Below are positions 25,923 to 35,863 of a stretch of DNA of 36,584 nucleotides, in pieces. The stretch is taken from positions 1 through 36,584 of the forward strand of contig PXCF01000028.1 of the NCBI GenBank assembly GCA_003566715.1. The letters run 5' to 3'. Both the position numbers and the translations under genes were made by a program. The notes under the pieces were generated by a model. It was not told the DNA's origin, did no database searches, and was given only the letters and a program-made list of their open reading frames with translations. This DNA is from Cryomorphaceae bacterium (GTDB taxonomy: Bacteria; Bacteroidota; Bacteroidia; Flavobacteriales; Schleiferiaceae). Each line of letters opens with the position of its first letter. The stretch's first letter is position 1.

Positions 25923-26549
25923 ATGAAAAAAACAACTATCCTCTGCTTCTTTGCCGGCATGTTTATAACTTGTACTGCCCATGCACAAAGTGCTCATAAC
26001 GTTACTCTGTCCTCCATGCAAGACAGCTTATTGATGGCCGATGCCGGACAAGACAGCGCCTTTACCAACTCAAACGACCTCAATAGCTTTTTTATCGGCG
26101 GAAATCCAAGTGCTCTTGGCGGTACCCCACCCTATCGCTACGAATGGGCACCATCTACTCCGCTCGACGACGAAACACTAAGCAATCCGCAAATCACCAA
26201 CCAAACCGTTGGTCAGCAAACCTACCAACTCACCGTGTTTGACGATAGAAATTGTACCGCCGTCGATTCGGTGATGATTACACTTCTGTTCATTTCATCC
26301 ATTGACAAAAACCAAAAGGGATTGGTGAAATTATACCCTAATCCGGCAAGCACCCAAATCGTTTTTGAAGGACCTTTCCAAAATGGACAATTGCGCTTGA
26401 AAGATTCGAGTGGGAGAGTCATCGAGCAAACTGCGGTGACTAAAACTAAAACGACCCTGAATATTCAACATCTGCCTGCGGGTATCTACCTAATTGAATA
26501 CGTTGGAGGGGGGCGTACGGTCACCGAAAAGTTTATCATTCAAAAGTGA
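25923..26549 (+). CDS. Secreted PKD/SprB-like protein with T9SS sorting domain
   Basis: 208 aa. Signal peptide residues 1-21 (MKKTTILCFFAGMFITC, cleavage after AHA). Residues ~35-125 form one PKD/SprB-type repeat: GGTPPYRYEWAPSTPL, LSNPQIT, QTYQLTVFDDRNCTAVDSV. A type A T9SS sorting domain occupies ~135-208 (LYPNPAST, LKDSSGRVIEQ, LPAGIYLIEY, final KFIIQK). Probably a surface adhesin-like or minor matrix protein; no catalytic motif. The next gene starts 46 bases later on the same strand without its own clear promoter, suggesting cotranscription. Confidence 0.85.
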   Translation: MKKTTILCFFAGMFITCTAHAQSAHNVTLSSMQDSLLMADAGQDSAFTNSNDLNSFFIGGNPSALGGTPPYRYEWAPSTPLDDETLSNPQITNQTVGQQTYQLTVFDDRNCTAVDSVMITLLFISSIDKNQKGLVKLYPNPASTQIVFEGPFQNGQLRLKDSSGRVIEQTAVTKTKTTLNIQHLPAGIYLIEYVGGGRTVTEKFIIQK

Positions 26550-26595
26550 TCAACTGCTAGAAATCCTTTTTTACACAAAACAAAACTCATTTAAA

Positions 26596-27549
26596 ATGAC
26601 TAGACTTTTCCACACTTATATATATGTATGCTTTTTAAGCGTTTCTGTGTTTGCACAACAAACCTTGGTGGTCGACCTCAACGACACCATTCACCTAGAG
26701 ATTGACCAAGCCCGTGGTAACCTGCAATGGGAAATTAGCTATGACAGCATCAATTGGCAGGATATCTCTGGGGCCAATAGCGCATCATTCTCTACCATTG
26801 CCGACTCACTTCCCGCCGGCTATCGCTTGCGTATAGAAGAAGGCAACTGCGACCCTATTCATTCAGAAGTGCTATGGGTTACACAAACGGTGAGTATCAT
26901 CTGCGGAATCGACAGTGTAAGCCACGGTTTTGTGGCCGGCTTTACGCCCGACACTTCCGCACAATTTGCCAACCGGGTGTACAGTACCGTGCAAGCAAAC
27001 TGGGGCGGACCGGGCGGAAACAGTTGCTGGTTGAAAATGAATCTCGGCGCTACCGCCGAAGCTGATTCTGCTTTAGACCCCTCTCCCGAGACATCGGGTT
27101 GGTATTGGCAGTTTAACCGTGCACAGGCTTACGCCCACGATGCAGGCGCCAACCGAACACCCAATACGACTTGGATTAACCCCATTAATGAGATTCAAGA
27201 TTGGACAACTGCCAATGACCCTTGTACGCAGTTATTGGGTAGCAGCTGGCGCTTACCTACGCAAGCCGAATGGAACAATTTCCTAACCGCATCCACAGCC
27301 AATGGTGGCGTGGGCAGCGGCTTTATATCCGATGCCTTTTCCTCAACGTTACGTATTCACGCGGGCGGACGAGCCAGCGGCGGAAGTGGTGACCTGCAAG
27401 ACCGCGGCTCCCAAGCCTACTTCTGGTCGTCTGAAGAAAACAGCAACAATACAGCGGGATCGTTTCGCTTTGGCGGTATTGGCTCCTTCCCGGTTAATGC
27501 CACGAAAAATTTTGGCATGGCCGTACGTTGTATTTGTGATTGCCCGTAG
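26596..27549 (+). CDS. Secreted FISUMP-domain protein
   Basis: 317 aa from the ATG at 26596; the frame extends upstream to 26494 but overlaps the previous gene and would bury the signal peptide. Residues 1-20 are the signal peptide (ending SVSVFA). Residues ~25-95 look like one Ig-like module (GNLQWEISYDSINWQDI). Residues ~137-314 match the Fibrobacter succinogenes major paralogous (FISUMP) domain: CWLKMNLGA, GWYWQFNRAQAYAHD, SWRLPTQAEWNNF at 217-229, YFWSSEENSN at 275 and FGMAVRCICD. There is no T9SS domain; the protein ends in a Cys-rich RCICDCP. Surface or extracellular role unknown. Confidence 0.75.
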   Translation: MTRLFHTYIYVCFLSVSVFAQQTLVVDLNDTIHLEIDQARGNLQWEISYDSINWQDISGANSASFSTIADSLPAGYRLRIEEGNCDPIHSEVLWVTQTVSIICGIDSVSHGFVAGFTPDTSAQFANRVYSTVQANWGGPGGNSCWLKMNLGATAEADSALDPSPETSGWYWQFNRAQAYAHDAGANRTPNTTWINPINEIQDWTTANDPCTQLLGSSWRLPTQAEWNNFLTASTANGGVGSGFISDAFSSTLRIHAGGRASGGSGDLQDRGSQAYFWSSEENSNNTAGSFRFGGIGSFPVNATKNFGMAVRCICDCP

Positions 27550-27696: not shown

Positions 27697-29619
27697 TCAA
27701 TAAACGAGCAGCTTATGACGCTCACTGCCACGGGCATCGGAAATGCGTAGGGAATAGTGACCCGCTGCCAATCGGCTAATGTCTACACTTGACGCATGAT
27801 CACTGTGTTGACCGCGATAGACTTCGCGGCCTTGCTGGTCGTAAATGACAACATCAAAATTCTCCCCTACGGTAGCAAAGTGCACCATATCTGAAGACGG
27901 ATTGGGGTATACGCCATAACGCAATCTATCGGTTTTGTAAACCGCGTTATCGAGCGTAAAGCCAACAGTAAAATGGTGGTGTATACGTGTACCAAAATCG
28001 GGATTAAACAACTTAAGCACTCCTGAATTGGTCATAAAACGCAGGGCACCGGCTCCGTCGCTATTGGCCCAAAAACTTAACCCATTCTTACCCCGATCGT
28101 GAAATATCAGCTCGTAGCAATCTTGAGGCAGTTGTAGGTCTATGTTCACATTTTGATTGGCGGTATAATTGTCGCCTTGCTCCACAGTATCACCCGCGGC
28201 ATTCCGCAATATCCAATGGGTTTCGTCTCCACGGGTATTGGTTCTAAAGTTCATTCTAAACTCTGACGGGTACGTTGGTGCAGCATCAAACACTGAAGTT
28301 TGTGCATCGTTGAAGGGATAGGTGTCCGGCTCGCCATTGGGTGCGGCTGTCCAAGCCGTAAAAATGGTTTTACCCACATAGTCCGACCAAGCATCGGGAT
28401 CGTCAAATGGCAATTGCACAATGGTCTTTTGCATGGGCAACAGCGTTCCCTCCCACTGATGCATCAAGCGTTTGCCGGTAAACATACCGTAGTGGATTTC
28501 TACCGAATGAAGGGTATCTCCACCTCTGTTCTGAATCTCAACTTGAGCCGTGCCGCAACTTGGGTTGAAGCGACTGAATTTTTCGTGACTGCTGGGCGAT
28601 AAAATATTGGTCAGTGCTGCATCGTAGGTTCTCATCGGATCTTCATAAGTAAACAAAATAGCCGATAGGTTGTAATTGGCCGGGGTTTCTCCCGATGGCA
28701 CAGTGTATATGATGGGCTCAATATCTACATCAAGTCTCAAAGAATCGCCCGGTGTATAAAGTCCGGTTAACTCGTGGGTATAGGTAATAACCTCTGTGCC
28801 TGGACACCAATTCGCTCGATCGAATAACCAAGTTCCCCCTTGCGGATAGACGGGGTTCATCCCACAATCGTCGCGCCACATGAGTTGTTGAAAGTGCTGT
28901 TGCCCATTGAGCTTTACGTAATAGTCACGCTGACAAAACTCTGCACAGTTGGGGGCGTTAACGAATCCGTGACCGGAAGGGGTAAACTTCAAAGCGGCTT
29001 GCTTATCGTCTACTTCCATTTTTAAAGCCACTTCGGGAAGTACGTCGCTTTCAAATTGACTGGGCGTAAAGTAATTGTGACGCCCCGGCGTGTAAATATT
29101 CTCAATTCTTCGCACACGACGAGGGGGCGTGCCTTCAATCATCTCAAATGCAATATCAGCGCTAAATCCGGACGACCATCCTTGATAAAAGACTTCAATT
29201 TCCACCGAGTCTTTCATCAACATCTGAAAATCAGTCACGTCAAAATCAAATCGGTGTGTCCAATTGTTGCTGAATCCCTGTTGTCCTCGGTCCATGTAAC
29301 CACCATAAGGGGTGATCAATCTGGCCAACTCAAAACGCTCAATTGTGGTGTCATTGCCGGAAATATGTCGCTTGCGCAAATAGACCAACACGGTATAGTC
29401 CCAATCGCTGCAACCACCGGAAGCGCACCCCATGGTGAATGTCATGTTGACGTGGTGAAATTCTTTATTTGACGGAAAGTGTGCCCAGTCATTATAAGCC
29501 TCAAACCATACGATATCACGATTTTCGTGAGCCTGTACAATGATGGTATCGCCTTCTGCTGCAAAAGTTTGCAAAGCCAGTAAGAGGGAAAGGGCAAGTG
29601 TGGATAGATGTTTGATCAT
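27697..29619 (-). CDS. PNGase F-like N-glycan amidase with T9SS sorting domain
   Basis: 640 aa. Signal peptide 1-21. Residues ~30-330 align with both eight-stranded jelly-roll domains of Elizabethkingia PNGase F, which cleaves the glycan-asparagine amide: CASGGCSDWDYTVLVYL (65-81), LITPYGG, FDFDVTDFQMLM, NCAEFCQRDYYV (224-235), DCGMNP and FDRANWCPGTEV. Asp74 corresponds to the essential Asp60 and Glu227 to Glu206. The third active-site residue, Glu118, appears to be Gln146 (FYQGW). The six Cys at 65/70, 225/229 and 252/272 fit the known disulfide pattern. Residues ~340-560 hold two more beta domains, then a T9SS sorting domain (VYPNPSSDM near 567, final HKLLVY). Exported and probably released or surface-bound. 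Confidence 0.85.
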   Translation of the reverse strand: MIKHLSTLALSLLLALQTFAAEGDTIIVQAHENRDIVWFEAYNDWAHFPSNKEFHHVNMTFTMGCASGGCSDWDYTVLVYLRKRHISGNDTTIERFELARLITPYGGYMDRGQQGFSNNWTHRFDFDVTDFQMLMKDSVEIEVFYQGWSSGFSADIAFEMIEGTPPRRVRRIENIYTPGRHNYFTPSQFESDVLPEVALKMEVDDKQAALKFTPSGHGFVNAPNCAEFCQRDYYVKLNGQQHFQQLMWRDDCGMNPVYPQGGTWLFDRANWCPGTEVITYTHELTGLYTPGDSLRLDVDIEPIIYTVPSGETPANYNLSAILFTYEDPMRTYDAALTNILSPSSHEKFSRFNPSCGTAQVEIQNRGGDTLHSVEIHYGMFTGKRLMHQWEGTLLPMQKTIVQLPFDDPDAWSDYVGKTIFTAWTAAPNGEPDTYPFNDAQTSVFDAAPTYPSEFRMNFRTNTRGDETHWILRNAAGDTVEQGDNYTANQNVNIDLQLPQDCYELIFHDRGKNGLSFWANSDGAGALRFMTNSGVLKLFNPDFGTRIHHHFTVGFTLDNAVYKTDRLRYGVYPNPSSDMVHFATVGENFDVVIYDQQGREVYRGQHSDHASSVDISRLAAGHYSLRISDARGSERHKLLVY

Positions 29620-29730: not shown

Positions 29731-31974
29731 TTATTTCACCAAAACGCGAAATACCGACACATTTCCATCCTTAGCCGTGGCTTGTAAAAAGTAGACCCCG
29801 GAAGCGAATCGAGAGACGTCGTACTGGCGTTCTTGTTGGTGTTCGTCGATGTTGTGCGCCTCGATCACGCGGCCATTGACATCGGTCAGTCTGATGTGGT
29901 AAACCTCTGGCGCTGCCGACAAGTCCACACGAATCAGGTCGGATGAAGGATTGGGATAAATAGCAATGGTTGCTTTACCTCTAAAGCGCTTGGCGCTGGC
30001 CGTATTAAGCGCTTGTTCAACAGCTGCATAAGCATTTAATTTTCCCCAGCCCCAGTGCAAATCGCCGGTTGAAGGGAGTGTTCCTGTATTGTTGTCTTGT
30101 CGGGCCGTACTGCGAATGATGTCGCGAATTTGGTCCCAGGTAAGCGATGGATTGGCTTCTAACATAAGTGCCACTACGCCGGCGGTAACGGGACCCGACA
30201 TTGAGGTGCCCGAATAACGGGCATATTGATAGGTTTTACCATTCCAACTAACATTTCCAAATGTTTGTCCGGGGTCGGGATCAAAACTAGAAACCGAAGA
30301 TGCCACCTGAACACCAGGCGCCGTGATATCCGGTTTTACTCTTCCATCTACGGTGGGACCAAAACTGGAGAAAGGCGCAATATTGCCGTGAAGTTCACGC
30401 CCCGAAGACGAGAATTCTCTAGAACGGTATGCACCAACCGTTATCACCGATGGGCCAACACCCGATGGTTCGCCAACACCGTAATCCGAATCACCGGCAA
30501 CACCACCAATCAAAGGAACTCCCAATACATCCGAAATCAAAGACTCTCCCCAATTGGTATAACGGGTAAGTAAACGAGCCACATTCCAGCAGTGAACTTC
30601 CCCACTACCGGTAAGGCGAACAACGGCATTTAATCCGGCTTGGTTTTTTAATTCCAACCGTACATTGGCCTTGTCGTTATTGGGATCACTGCTGATACCT
30701 TCAACAATCATATGCACCGTATCGCCATTAATGGTAAACAAAGAGTCAACCGATGGGTTGTCTTGCGAATGCACCCATCCACTTCTAAATACCGTATCCA
30801 GTGTATTGTTTAAGAGCATAAGCTCCACGCTAAAGTCCTCATTGGGACTACCCCACATGGGAAGTGCATTGCCCCAGTAATCGTTGCGGTTGAGCGAATG
30901 TCTACGCATGTAAAAGGCTGCGGTATCAATGAGGTCGAGATCCACCTTTGCGTGAAAATTATTTTGTCCATTGTTACCGGCGGAACCAACAAATACCGCA
31001 CCTTGTCCTACAATCTGAGTAATGGCTTGATTTTTCAGAGATGTACCGTCGTGCGGACCCAAATGCGACCCCGTACTCATATTAAATACAAAGGGCTTAT
31101 TTTCTGAATCTGCGTAGTCTTTGACGTAGCTCATTCCATCCATCAAACCGGCGGCTCCCCTTCTGTAAGGCAGTAAGATCAGTTCTGCTGAGGAAGCCAA
31201 CCCTTCAAATGCGGTTCCCAAACCACTACCAGCGGCAATTCCACTGGTGTGCATTCCGTGTGAACCAAGACCAAAGGTGTACGGGTCGTCGTGTCCGGCG
31301 GCCAACATATCTGCTTCATTGGTGTACTCAGTACCGTAATTATATCCGCTGGGGGGCGTTCCTGCCGGGCTGTTTTGGTCCCAAACACGCGCCACGCGGT
31401 AGGTTGTTCCCGAGGTATCCCAGTATGTAGGGTGACCGTAGTCAAACCCCCAGTCAATTACACCAACCACTACGCCATTTCCGTTTAGCGGTGTGGTAAT
31501 CGTGCCCAAGCCTTGTTTTACCGTATCGGCGCCAACGTCATCTATGGCAAGATTAAGAGAAGGGGCGTCTCCTGGCGCCCCCATTTCAATGTAAATAATA
31601 CCGGGTATATTCAATAACTCTGCTGCTCTATCGGCGGGCACGTGAACGCTTCTTAAGTCGCCTAGTGAAGACCCGAGATGTCCGCCCAACTGTTCTATGA
31701 CGGCATCGTTATACGTGGCGGGATCAACCTTTAGGGCTGCGCCAATATACCATTCGTTGTTAAACATTTGCAGCGCGTGGCGCAAGACAAAATTTTGTGG
31801 GAGCTCTTTACTCTGCTTTACTGCTTCAGGCAATTTTTTATATTCGTTCATAAAAAACTTAGCCGATACACTTGATACGGCATTCTGCGCGAACAAGCCC
31901 GAAGAAAAGAAACTTATTGTGAGAAAAAATGTAAGCGTCTTAATTGTGAAATAACGTTGTTTCATCATTACCAT
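29731..31974 (-). CDS. Subtilisin-family (S8) secreted protease with T9SS sorting domain
   Basis: 747 aa from the ATG at 31974. Alternatives are ATG 31968 and 31965, or the frame's first ATG at 32004, which would push the signal peptide inward. Signal peptide ends SGLFAQ; a propeptide-like domain spans ~35-140. Catalytic triad: Asp174 (GVIDWGFDYGHP), His239 (SHGMHTSGIAAG) and Ser591 (YSGTSMSGPVTAG), with oxyanion Asn334 in GSAGNNG. About 165 residues between the Asn and GPSVITVGAY form an inserted beta domain (FHAKVDLDLIDTAAFYMRR...). A T9SS sorting domain covers ~675-747 (IYPNPSSDL, LTDVNGRVIEAH, final VFRVLVK). Extracellular proteolysis is the expected role. Possibly cotranscribed with the upstream decarboxylase-like gene. 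Confidence 0.93.
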   Translation of the reverse strand: MVMMKQRYFTIKTLTFFLTISFFSSGLFAQNAVSSVSAKFFMNEYKKLPEAVKQSKELPQNFVLRHALQMFNNEWYIGAALKVDPATYNDAVIEQLGGHLGSSLGDLRSVHVPADRAAELLNIPGIIYIEMGAPGDAPSLNLAIDDVGADTVKQGLGTITTPLNGNGVVVGVIDWGFDYGHPTYWDTSGTTYRVARVWDQNSPAGTPPSGYNYGTEYTNEADMLAAGHDDPYTFGLGSHGMHTSGIAAGSGLGTAFEGLASSAELILLPYRRGAAGLMDGMSYVKDYADSENKPFVFNMSTGSHLGPHDGTSLKNQAITQIVGQGAVFVGSAGNNGQNNFHAKVDLDLIDTAAFYMRRHSLNRNDYWGNALPMWGSPNEDFSVELMLLNNTLDTVFRSGWVHSQDNPSVDSLFTINGDTVHMIVEGISSDPNNDKANVRLELKNQAGLNAVVRLTGSGEVHCWNVARLLTRYTNWGESLISDVLGVPLIGGVAGDSDYGVGEPSGVGPSVITVGAYRSREFSSSGRELHGNIAPFSSFGPTVDGRVKPDITAPGVQVASSVSSFDPDPGQTFGNVSWNGKTYQYARYSGTSMSGPVTAGVVALMLEANPSLTWDQIRDIIRSTARQDNNTGTLPSTGDLHWGWGKLNAYAAVEQALNTASAKRFRGKATIAIYPNPSSDLIRVDLSAAPEVYHIRLTDVNGRVIEAHNIDEHQQERQYDVSRFASGVYFLQATAKDGNVSVFRVLVK

Positions 31975-32036
31975 TTTAATTGAAGTGGTAAAATTACGAA
32001 ACAACGACGGATATTTTTAAGCCTTGAACCGAATAT

Positions 32037-35000: not shown

Positions 35001-35008
35001 TAAATTTG
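35001..35008 (+). promoter_or_regulatory. TAnnTTTG promoter box for the T9SS cargo gene and threonine dehydrogenase
   Basis: TAAATTTG lies 21 bases before the ATG at 35030. An earlier in-frame ATG at 35006 overlaps this box, so 35030 is the likelier start. A TTA occurs 20 bases upstream where TTG is expected. Confidence 0.6.
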
Positions 35009-35029
35009 CCAATCACGAAGCAACGATAC

Positions 35030-35863
35030 ATGAAAAAATCACTAAAAGAAAAACTTGCCCGTTACGGTTCGGTTGCGGCTGGTGTACTTGGCACAACCAG
35101 TGTTGGCGCTCAAGTCAATTACGTAGACGTCCAATCCGACACCATTCGAACCGATACACTTTTCGCCGTCAGTTTAGATGGCGATTCTCTTAATCACTTT
35201 GCCATTCGCTCGGAGTTTGATGTGAATCTCGGCATCAACACCTTTGACATCATTGAAGCTGTACCACTCAACAGTACCCACAACCGCATTGCCGGGAACA
35301 CCCCGATGAGTTACGCCTATGCGTCAAAATTTGACTTTGGCGTTGATATTGGCCCCGGAACAGAGTGGCTTCCTGGCCTTACCAACGGCAGCATGAGTTT
35401 CGCCCGCAATGGAGCGTTTGATTACAACGATTACTGGAATGGTGGCGCCACCGATAAGTTTTTGGGACTTCGCATTCGTCGCAACGACTCCACCCACTAC
35501 GGCTGGATGCGCTTGGATATTGACACCGCCGGAACGTGGTTTATCGTCAAAGACCACGCACTTAATCTCAAGGGCAATGAGCCATTGAACACCTCCTATC
35601 TTATAGGTGTAGAAAACCACAGAAAAATGGCCTTTATTGTTGCCCAGCGTCCATCGGAAATTTGGGTCAAGGCCGACGCACTCCGAGAAAAAGCAAGCGT
35701 AGAAATGTACGACCTCAACGGTCGCGTGGTATATAATGGTCACATTTCTCCCAATAGAGAGCTCAGTATTCCTACCGACCAATTGGCCCGTGGGGTTTAT
35801 GTGCTGCGCTTCTTTAACCAGCACGGCCTTATCGAACGAAAAGTCAACATCAATCAATATTAA
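35030..35863 (+). CDS. Secreted T9SS cargo protein
   Basis: 277 aa. The N-terminus MKKSLKEKLARYGSVAAGV followed by GTTSVGAQ is a recurring Bacteroidota export signal (a long basic region before a short Ala/Gly/Val core); cleavage is expected after GAQ. Residues ~35-195 form a single beta-rich domain with FDYNDYWNGGATDKFLGLRI, HYGWMRLDIDTAGTWF and IVKDHALNLKGNEPL, a pattern common in exported proteins of this phylum but without known function. The C-terminal ~75 residues are a T9SS sorting domain variant (MYDLNGRVVYNGHI, LARGVYVLRF, RKVNINQY); the usual YPNP start is replaced by VENHRKMAFI. The next gene begins 18 bases later. Confidence 0.8.
   Translation: MKKSLKEKLARYGSVAAGVLGTTSVGAQVNYVDVQSDTIRTDTLFAVSLDGDSLNHFAIRSEFDVNLGINTFDIIEAVPLNSTHNRIAGNTPMSYAYASKFDFGVDIGPGTEWLPGLTNGSMSFARNGAFDYNDYWNGGATDKFLGLRIRRNDSTHYGWMRLDIDTAGTWFIVKDHALNLKGNEPLNTSYLIGVENHRKMAFIVAQRPSEIWVKADALREKASVEMYDLNGRVVYNGHISPNRELSIPTDQLARGVYVLRFFNQHGLIERKVNINQY

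Follow-up and report, generated by a model that had tools for sequence, protein, structure and literature searches.

The residue at position 118 of PNGase F, the type I peptide:N-glycanase (PNGase) of Elizabethkingia meningoseptica, differs among the described PNGases. According to PMC9522356, Glu118 of PNGase F blocks the spot where a core alpha-1,3-fucose would sit, type II PNGases have Gly at 118 together with a fucose pocket (their Glu418 being said to assume the coordination), and Bacteroides group 1 PNGases, to which the active B. fragilis enzyme belongs, have Asp; one enzyme from each Bacteroides group proved active. In zebrafish Ngly2, all activity was lost on changing the equivalent of either Asp60 or Glu206 of PNGase F (PMC12753239). 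PMC12381499 describes six further PNGases whose models leave the surroundings of C3 on the core GlcNAc open; activity was seen, although little for the oyster enzyme, and two of the six, PNGaseL (Flavobacterium akiainvivens) and PNGaseDo (Draconibacterium orientale), bear T9SS tails. The PNGase tree in that report contains 1897 sequences, and therefore probably includes the branch to which the protein described here belongs.

The window, by which we mean the whole 36,584-nucleotide stretch of DNA that was analysed, encodes a PNGase F-like protein of 640 residues on its minus strand (27697-29619, ATG start), identified from the ORF list, Pfam and an AlphaFold2 model. Pfam matched N-glycanase_C to residues 192-322 (3.8e-19) and Por_Secre_tail to residues 570-639 (5.2e-11), and a match of N-glycanase_N to residues 89-156 (8.5e-4) fell under the curated cut-off. 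The best solved relative by sequence is PNGase F (3pms, 1.6e-19); padloc returned no match for the protein. The AlphaFold2 model (pLDDT 87, with 51 sequences in the alignment) has the double jelly-roll PNGase fold, and its residues 24-329 superpose on PNGase F (1png) over 281 residues by VIA-align (Z 28.2, rmsd 2.4), so that the predicted structure agrees with the PNGase F homology first proposed from the sequence. The other PNGases follow, namely Ngly2 (Z 25.4), the P. massiliensis PNGase 7zgn (25.2), PNGF-II (25.2), the B. fragilis enzyme (24.6), the B. vulgatus enzyme (24.0) and PNGase Bb (16.9), and the first row below the PNGases drops to Z 10.8.

The protein opens with what we judged by eye to be an N-terminal signal peptide (about residues 1-21). 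All further domains also lie on the minus strand: the PNGase catalytic domain (residues 24-329, 28633-29550), delimited by VIA-align to 1png and the N-glycanase_C match; an Ig-like accessory domain (residues 330-445, 28285-28632), seen in the strands of the model and in VIA-align rows spanning about 331 to 445; a beta-sandwich accessory module (residues 447-557, 27949-28281); and a T9SS type A C-terminal sorting domain (residues 565-640, 27700-27927). The preliminary description had noted about 220 extra residues relative to PNGase F and routing to the T9SS. Both points stand, the first being accounted for by the two accessory domains and the tail, and the second by the Por_Secre_tail and TIGR04183 assignments, by the fold of the modelled tail, which matches T9SS tails (NucA tail 8glk_D, VIA-align Z 9.6), and by the presence in the same genome of SprA (2613 bits), the component of the T9SS machinery for which we searched. 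Keeping the enzyme close to its substrate, or supplying its surface context, is the probable role of the two accessory beta-modules.

Judged from sequence and profile alignments, the three sites at issue pair as follows. W73-D74-Y75 (29395-29403, minus strand) aligns with Trp59-Asp60-Arg61 of PNGase F, the WDR motif of the Asp60 site; Gln146 in FYQGW (29182-29184, minus strand) aligns with the Glu of YTETW, Glu118; and Glu227 in NCAEFC (28939-28941, minus strand) aligns with the Glu of GCAEWC, Glu206. A profile built from 51 orthologues gives the identical pairing of Gln146 with Glu118, which bears out the earlier reading that Asp74 and Glu227 are kept while the Glu expected at 118 in a type I enzyme is replaced by Gln. 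PNGase F is the nearest match by both sequence and fold, and six cysteines (65, 70, 225, 229, 252 and 272) align with cysteines of PNGase F. Besides Gln for Glu118, the window protein differs from PNGase F in having His217 (28969-28971, minus strand) for Trp191 and Tyr for Arg61, and in its two added accessory domains and T9SS tail.

Among the other described enzymes, PNGaseL and PNGaseDo, compared here by their description in PMC12381499, are likewise from Bacteroidota and share accessory beta-modules and T9SS tails, an aromatic-Asp-positive/aromatic motif, a His and a Glu on the facing loop, and, in their models, the open space near C3; PNGaseDo, with three beta-modules, may share the window protein's architecture. 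Ngly2, an acid PNGase, shares the PNGase fold and the identical essential Asp/Glu pair, but is an animal enzyme, believed to be lysosomal, with a protease-associated domain and an acid pH optimum. PNGase F-II and the Bacteroides group 2 PNGases resemble the window protein in having no Glu at 118, in their facing-loop His and in keeping the catalytic Glu. They differ in having Gly at 118, with Glu418 as the said replacement, and an N-terminal bowl-like domain, and they form a distant branch on our tree. We rejected type II identity for the window protein, which has Gln in place of that Gly, has a catalytic domain beginning at about residue 24 of the predicted model with no bowl-like domain before it, and stands apart from the type II group on the tree.

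To place Gln146 in its family, we compared two sets of relatives. The first holds the best 80 of 180 relatives found in genome contigs, by search patterns including the Asp60 motif, together with the window protein (81 rows). The second, wider set began as 160 collected domains, including PF09113 matches from other genomes and three PDB fragments, of which 139 were kept after removing identical domains and those of less than 150 or more than 520 residues. The PF09113 loci in it from the class and phylum are the best-scoring matches, up to 30 per search, rather than a random draw, which somewhat reduces our confidence in the main reading below. Proteins of this family are present in 152 of 295 genomes in the class and in 61 of 395 in the phylum sample. 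Among the best 80 of 180 relatives, the nearest named carriers are Cryomorphaceae MAGs, and others include Owenweeksia, Phaeocystidibacter luteus, Saprospiraceae, Aureispira and Marinifilum; going by the organism names, we take the carriers to be aquatic. In six PNGase relatives (L024, L025, L026, L065, L072 and L076), a break separates the part of the domain match around Asp60 from the part around Glu118, which would suit a large insertion, and some of the ORFs are about 1120-1150 residues long.

Glu227 and His217 are each present in 81 of 81 rows of the first set, as is Asp74 in 80 of the 80 rows with a letter there, a count that is partly selected because one search pattern spans the Asp60 motif. 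The wider set gives Asp74 in 134 of 134 rows with a letter at the position, Glu227 in 139 of 139 and His217 in 138 of 139. The lone exception at the last position is PNGase F itself, with Trp, and for this reason PNGase F is a poor yardstick.

The Glu118 site behaves differently. Of the 81 rows, 79 (the window protein among them) have a clean motif, and in these it is occupied by Ser (33), Gln (19), Asn (6), Asp (5), Glu (5), Gly (3), Lys (2), Ala (2), Thr (2) and His (2). In the 81-row set it ranks 72nd in variability among 284 domain positions, with an entropy of 2.55 bits against a median of 1.77, and the adjoining Gly147 is near-invariant. The wider set of 139 has Ser (43), Gly (29), Gln (22), Asp (20), Glu (8), Asn (6), Thr (4), Lys (2), Ala (2), His (2) and one gap; some of its rows are loosely aligned in the loop at site 118 (e.g. 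GNW, DAP), so the clean-motif count is the firmer one. On a tree of the 139 sequences, a quick one in which long branches meet, position 146 requires at least 31 residue changes, including 11 switches between acid and non-acid, while Asp74 and Glu227 require none. The Glu118 site is labile and the Asp/Glu catalytic pair is not. Gln146 should therefore not be taken as the mark of a dead enzyme, and we rejected its reading as the loss of a catalytic residue, given the lability of the position on the tree.

We consider it probable that the protein is an active, T9SS-secreted peptide:N-glycanase using Asp74 and Glu227, with a neutral Gln146 predicted to lie near C3 of the core GlcNAc, and most likely an ordinary working deglycosylase, neither disabled nor repurposed. 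The Asp74/Glu227 pair would hydrolyse the amide bond that links the first GlcNAc to asparagine. Gln146 would line the pocket near C3 of that sugar, and the chemistry in this branch would not need it. Since the residue is neutral where Glu118 is charged, the pocket may accommodate a core alpha-1,3-fucose, as has been proposed for open-site PNGases. The shift in glycan specificity suggested in the preliminary description is plausible in this light, since the site gates core alpha-1,3-fucose in the enzymes studied (PMC9522356). That description had also held that many active homologues with Gln at this position would speak against an altered active site: Gln occurs in 18 of the 78 other clean-motif rows, but our search of the literature, mostly open-access, brought up no publication dealing with this branch of an otherwise known kind of enzyme, and no assay of a Gln146-type enzyme or of any other member of the branch.

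A more restricted form of the same activity, in which the protein would be narrowly specific for core alpha-1,3-fucosylated N-glycans in the manner of type II enzymes, overlaps with the preferred reading as to catalysis and seems to us unlikely, though worth keeping in view. It draws on the type II enzymes, which combine the loss of Glu118 with a fucose pocket (PMC9522356), and on the His at the Trp191 position that they and the window protein have in common. Against this, site 118 is Gln rather than Gly, and the bowl-like domain and the placement on the tree with the type II group are both absent. The position paired with Glu418, in a loosely aligned loop, is Thr177 in the window protein; 70 of 81 rows carry Ser, Thr, Arg, Lys, His or Gln there, and the ten residues most frequent among the relatives include no acid.

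In the 81-row set, D24, D74, E97, D127 and E227 are the only acids conserved in 95% or more of the rows, and the alignment shows no obvious substitute acid for Glu118, at the Glu418-aligned position or elsewhere. Kuhn is said to have found in 1995 that E118Q greatly lowers the activity of PNGase F. Both points weigh against the preferred reading and, with the replacement of Glu118 itself, favour a weak or inactive enzyme turned lectin, in which catalysis failed with the loss of Glu118 and the protein now serves to bind N-glycans, either to attach or to sense. We regard this lectin reading as quite improbable, since every row with a letter at Asp74 or Glu227 keeps the catalytic residue, whereas a lectin would have no need to keep Asp74 and Glu227 while the 118 site changed so often. 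The substrate-contact His holds as well, and in other branches enzymes with Asp or Gly at 118 are active (PMC9522356). The lowered activity or lectin-like role put forward in the preliminary description thus finds no support.

The beta-sandwich module (residues 447-557) folds alone with a pLDDT of 94.9 in a separate model. No Pfam family describes it securely, and searches yielded no secure relative: there was no Foldseek match below 0.001, the best VIA-align Z was 6.5, and the best PDB match by sequence, at 0.003, was to a designed protein. Por_Secre_tail weakly matches 17 of 45 module sequences (best 2.3e-4), so the module and such tails may be remotely related. Searched with a module profile, nine of 13 other ORFs of relatives gave a match. 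Four of the nine are peptidases (three M43 and one trypsin-like); the others are three Omp28-type proteins, a PKD protein and one ORF without assignment. The 13 are 14 of the 15 ORFs among the matches listed beginning at residues 300-500 (a 4848-residue ORF was left out), minus L171, which was excluded as an apparent fragment of a PNGase relative whose remainder lies on another contig. Such mixed carriers make this a general module of T9SS cargo, found often but not exclusively on peptidases. Carriers with T9SS tails include the trypsin-like peptidase of L163 (720-3374, plus strand) and the M43 peptidases of L165 (640-2661, plus strand), L166 (1694-3556, minus strand) and L167 (1499-3346, plus strand).

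Directly upstream of the PNGase gene is a T9SS-tailed subtilase (Peptidase_S8; 29731-32004, minus strand), identified by Pfam in the neighbour scan and matched in padloc by generic subtilase models. Among the best 80 of 180 relatives, a subtilase adjoins the PNGase gene in two of 80 loci, some of whose flanks end at contig edges; both are the nearest relatives, and within the genus the count is two of four loci. We therefore rejected an operon with the subtilase. Other neighbours are an acetolactate decarboxylase-like protein, a methyltransferase and an aminotransferase, and the opposite side of the PNGase gene holds small secreted proteins and ribosomal genes. Three small proteins of the window (25923-26549, 26494-27549 and 35006-35863, all on the plus strand) gave two T9SS tail matches and one Fib_succ_major match below cut-off, the T9SS tail match of 35006-35863 being just under cut-off. 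In 24 of 80 loci (e.g. L086-L090), the gene immediately upstream of the PNGase gene belongs to a family of putative membrane proteins (hub of 192 residues), which we take by eye to be DUF502-like. Synteny thus exists at the level of the branch only, and membership in a conserved gene cluster was rejected.

The genome carrying the window (99.57% complete) gave no match to GH92, GH20, GH18, GH29 or GH130, families whose presence nearby or in the genome would indicate an N-glycan utilisation locus; each search gave matches in at least three of 14 control genomes. That result, with the absence of any N-glycan-breakdown gene among the ten neighbours scanned, would suit a PNGase-fold amidase acting on something other than N-glycoproteins, such as a glycosyl-amide in algal or bacterial polymers, to which we give a slim chance at best, as the contact residues tested are conserved and, according to a review, N-glycans are the exclusive substrates of the PNGase-family enzymes characterised so far. 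For an active PNGase, the lack of matches to the five families and the occurrence of the accessory module on T9SS peptidases suggest that the cell may deglycosylate in order to feed on the protein and not on the glycan. The likely use would be to strip N-glycans off eukaryotic (e.g. algal) glycoproteins, which secreted peptidases would then digest. In a comparison of 40 genomes, this one included, both GH92 and GH20 are missing from 18 of 25 genomes with a full-length relative (more than 200 bits) and from five of 15 without (Fisher p 0.024 overall and 0.34 within the family, with rows that are not independent). Seven of the 25 do have GH92 or GH20, and two of the 15 (G026 and G029) carry other PNGases. 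Also against protein feeding, the subtilase neighbour is not conserved, and five of the nine module-bearing proteins are non-peptidase by Pfam.

The comparison corrects a tempting inference, that a PNGase missing Glu118 must be dead. Enzymes that tolerate core alpha-1,3-fucose would be useful for the analysis of plant and insect glycans. It is possible, although we hold it tentatively, that aquatic Bacteroidota have a large uncharacterised branch of T9SS-secreted PNGases that relies on the Asp/Glu pair alone, without an acid at the Glu118 or Glu418 sites, accepts many core types, including algal ones, and serves protein foraging. Glycans would then be removed to give secreted peptidases access, in genomes without the enzymes for breaking the glycans down, and the freed glycans would be left to other microbes. 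PF09113 proteins are common in the sampled genomes, and a use of deglycosylation in protein feeding is testable.
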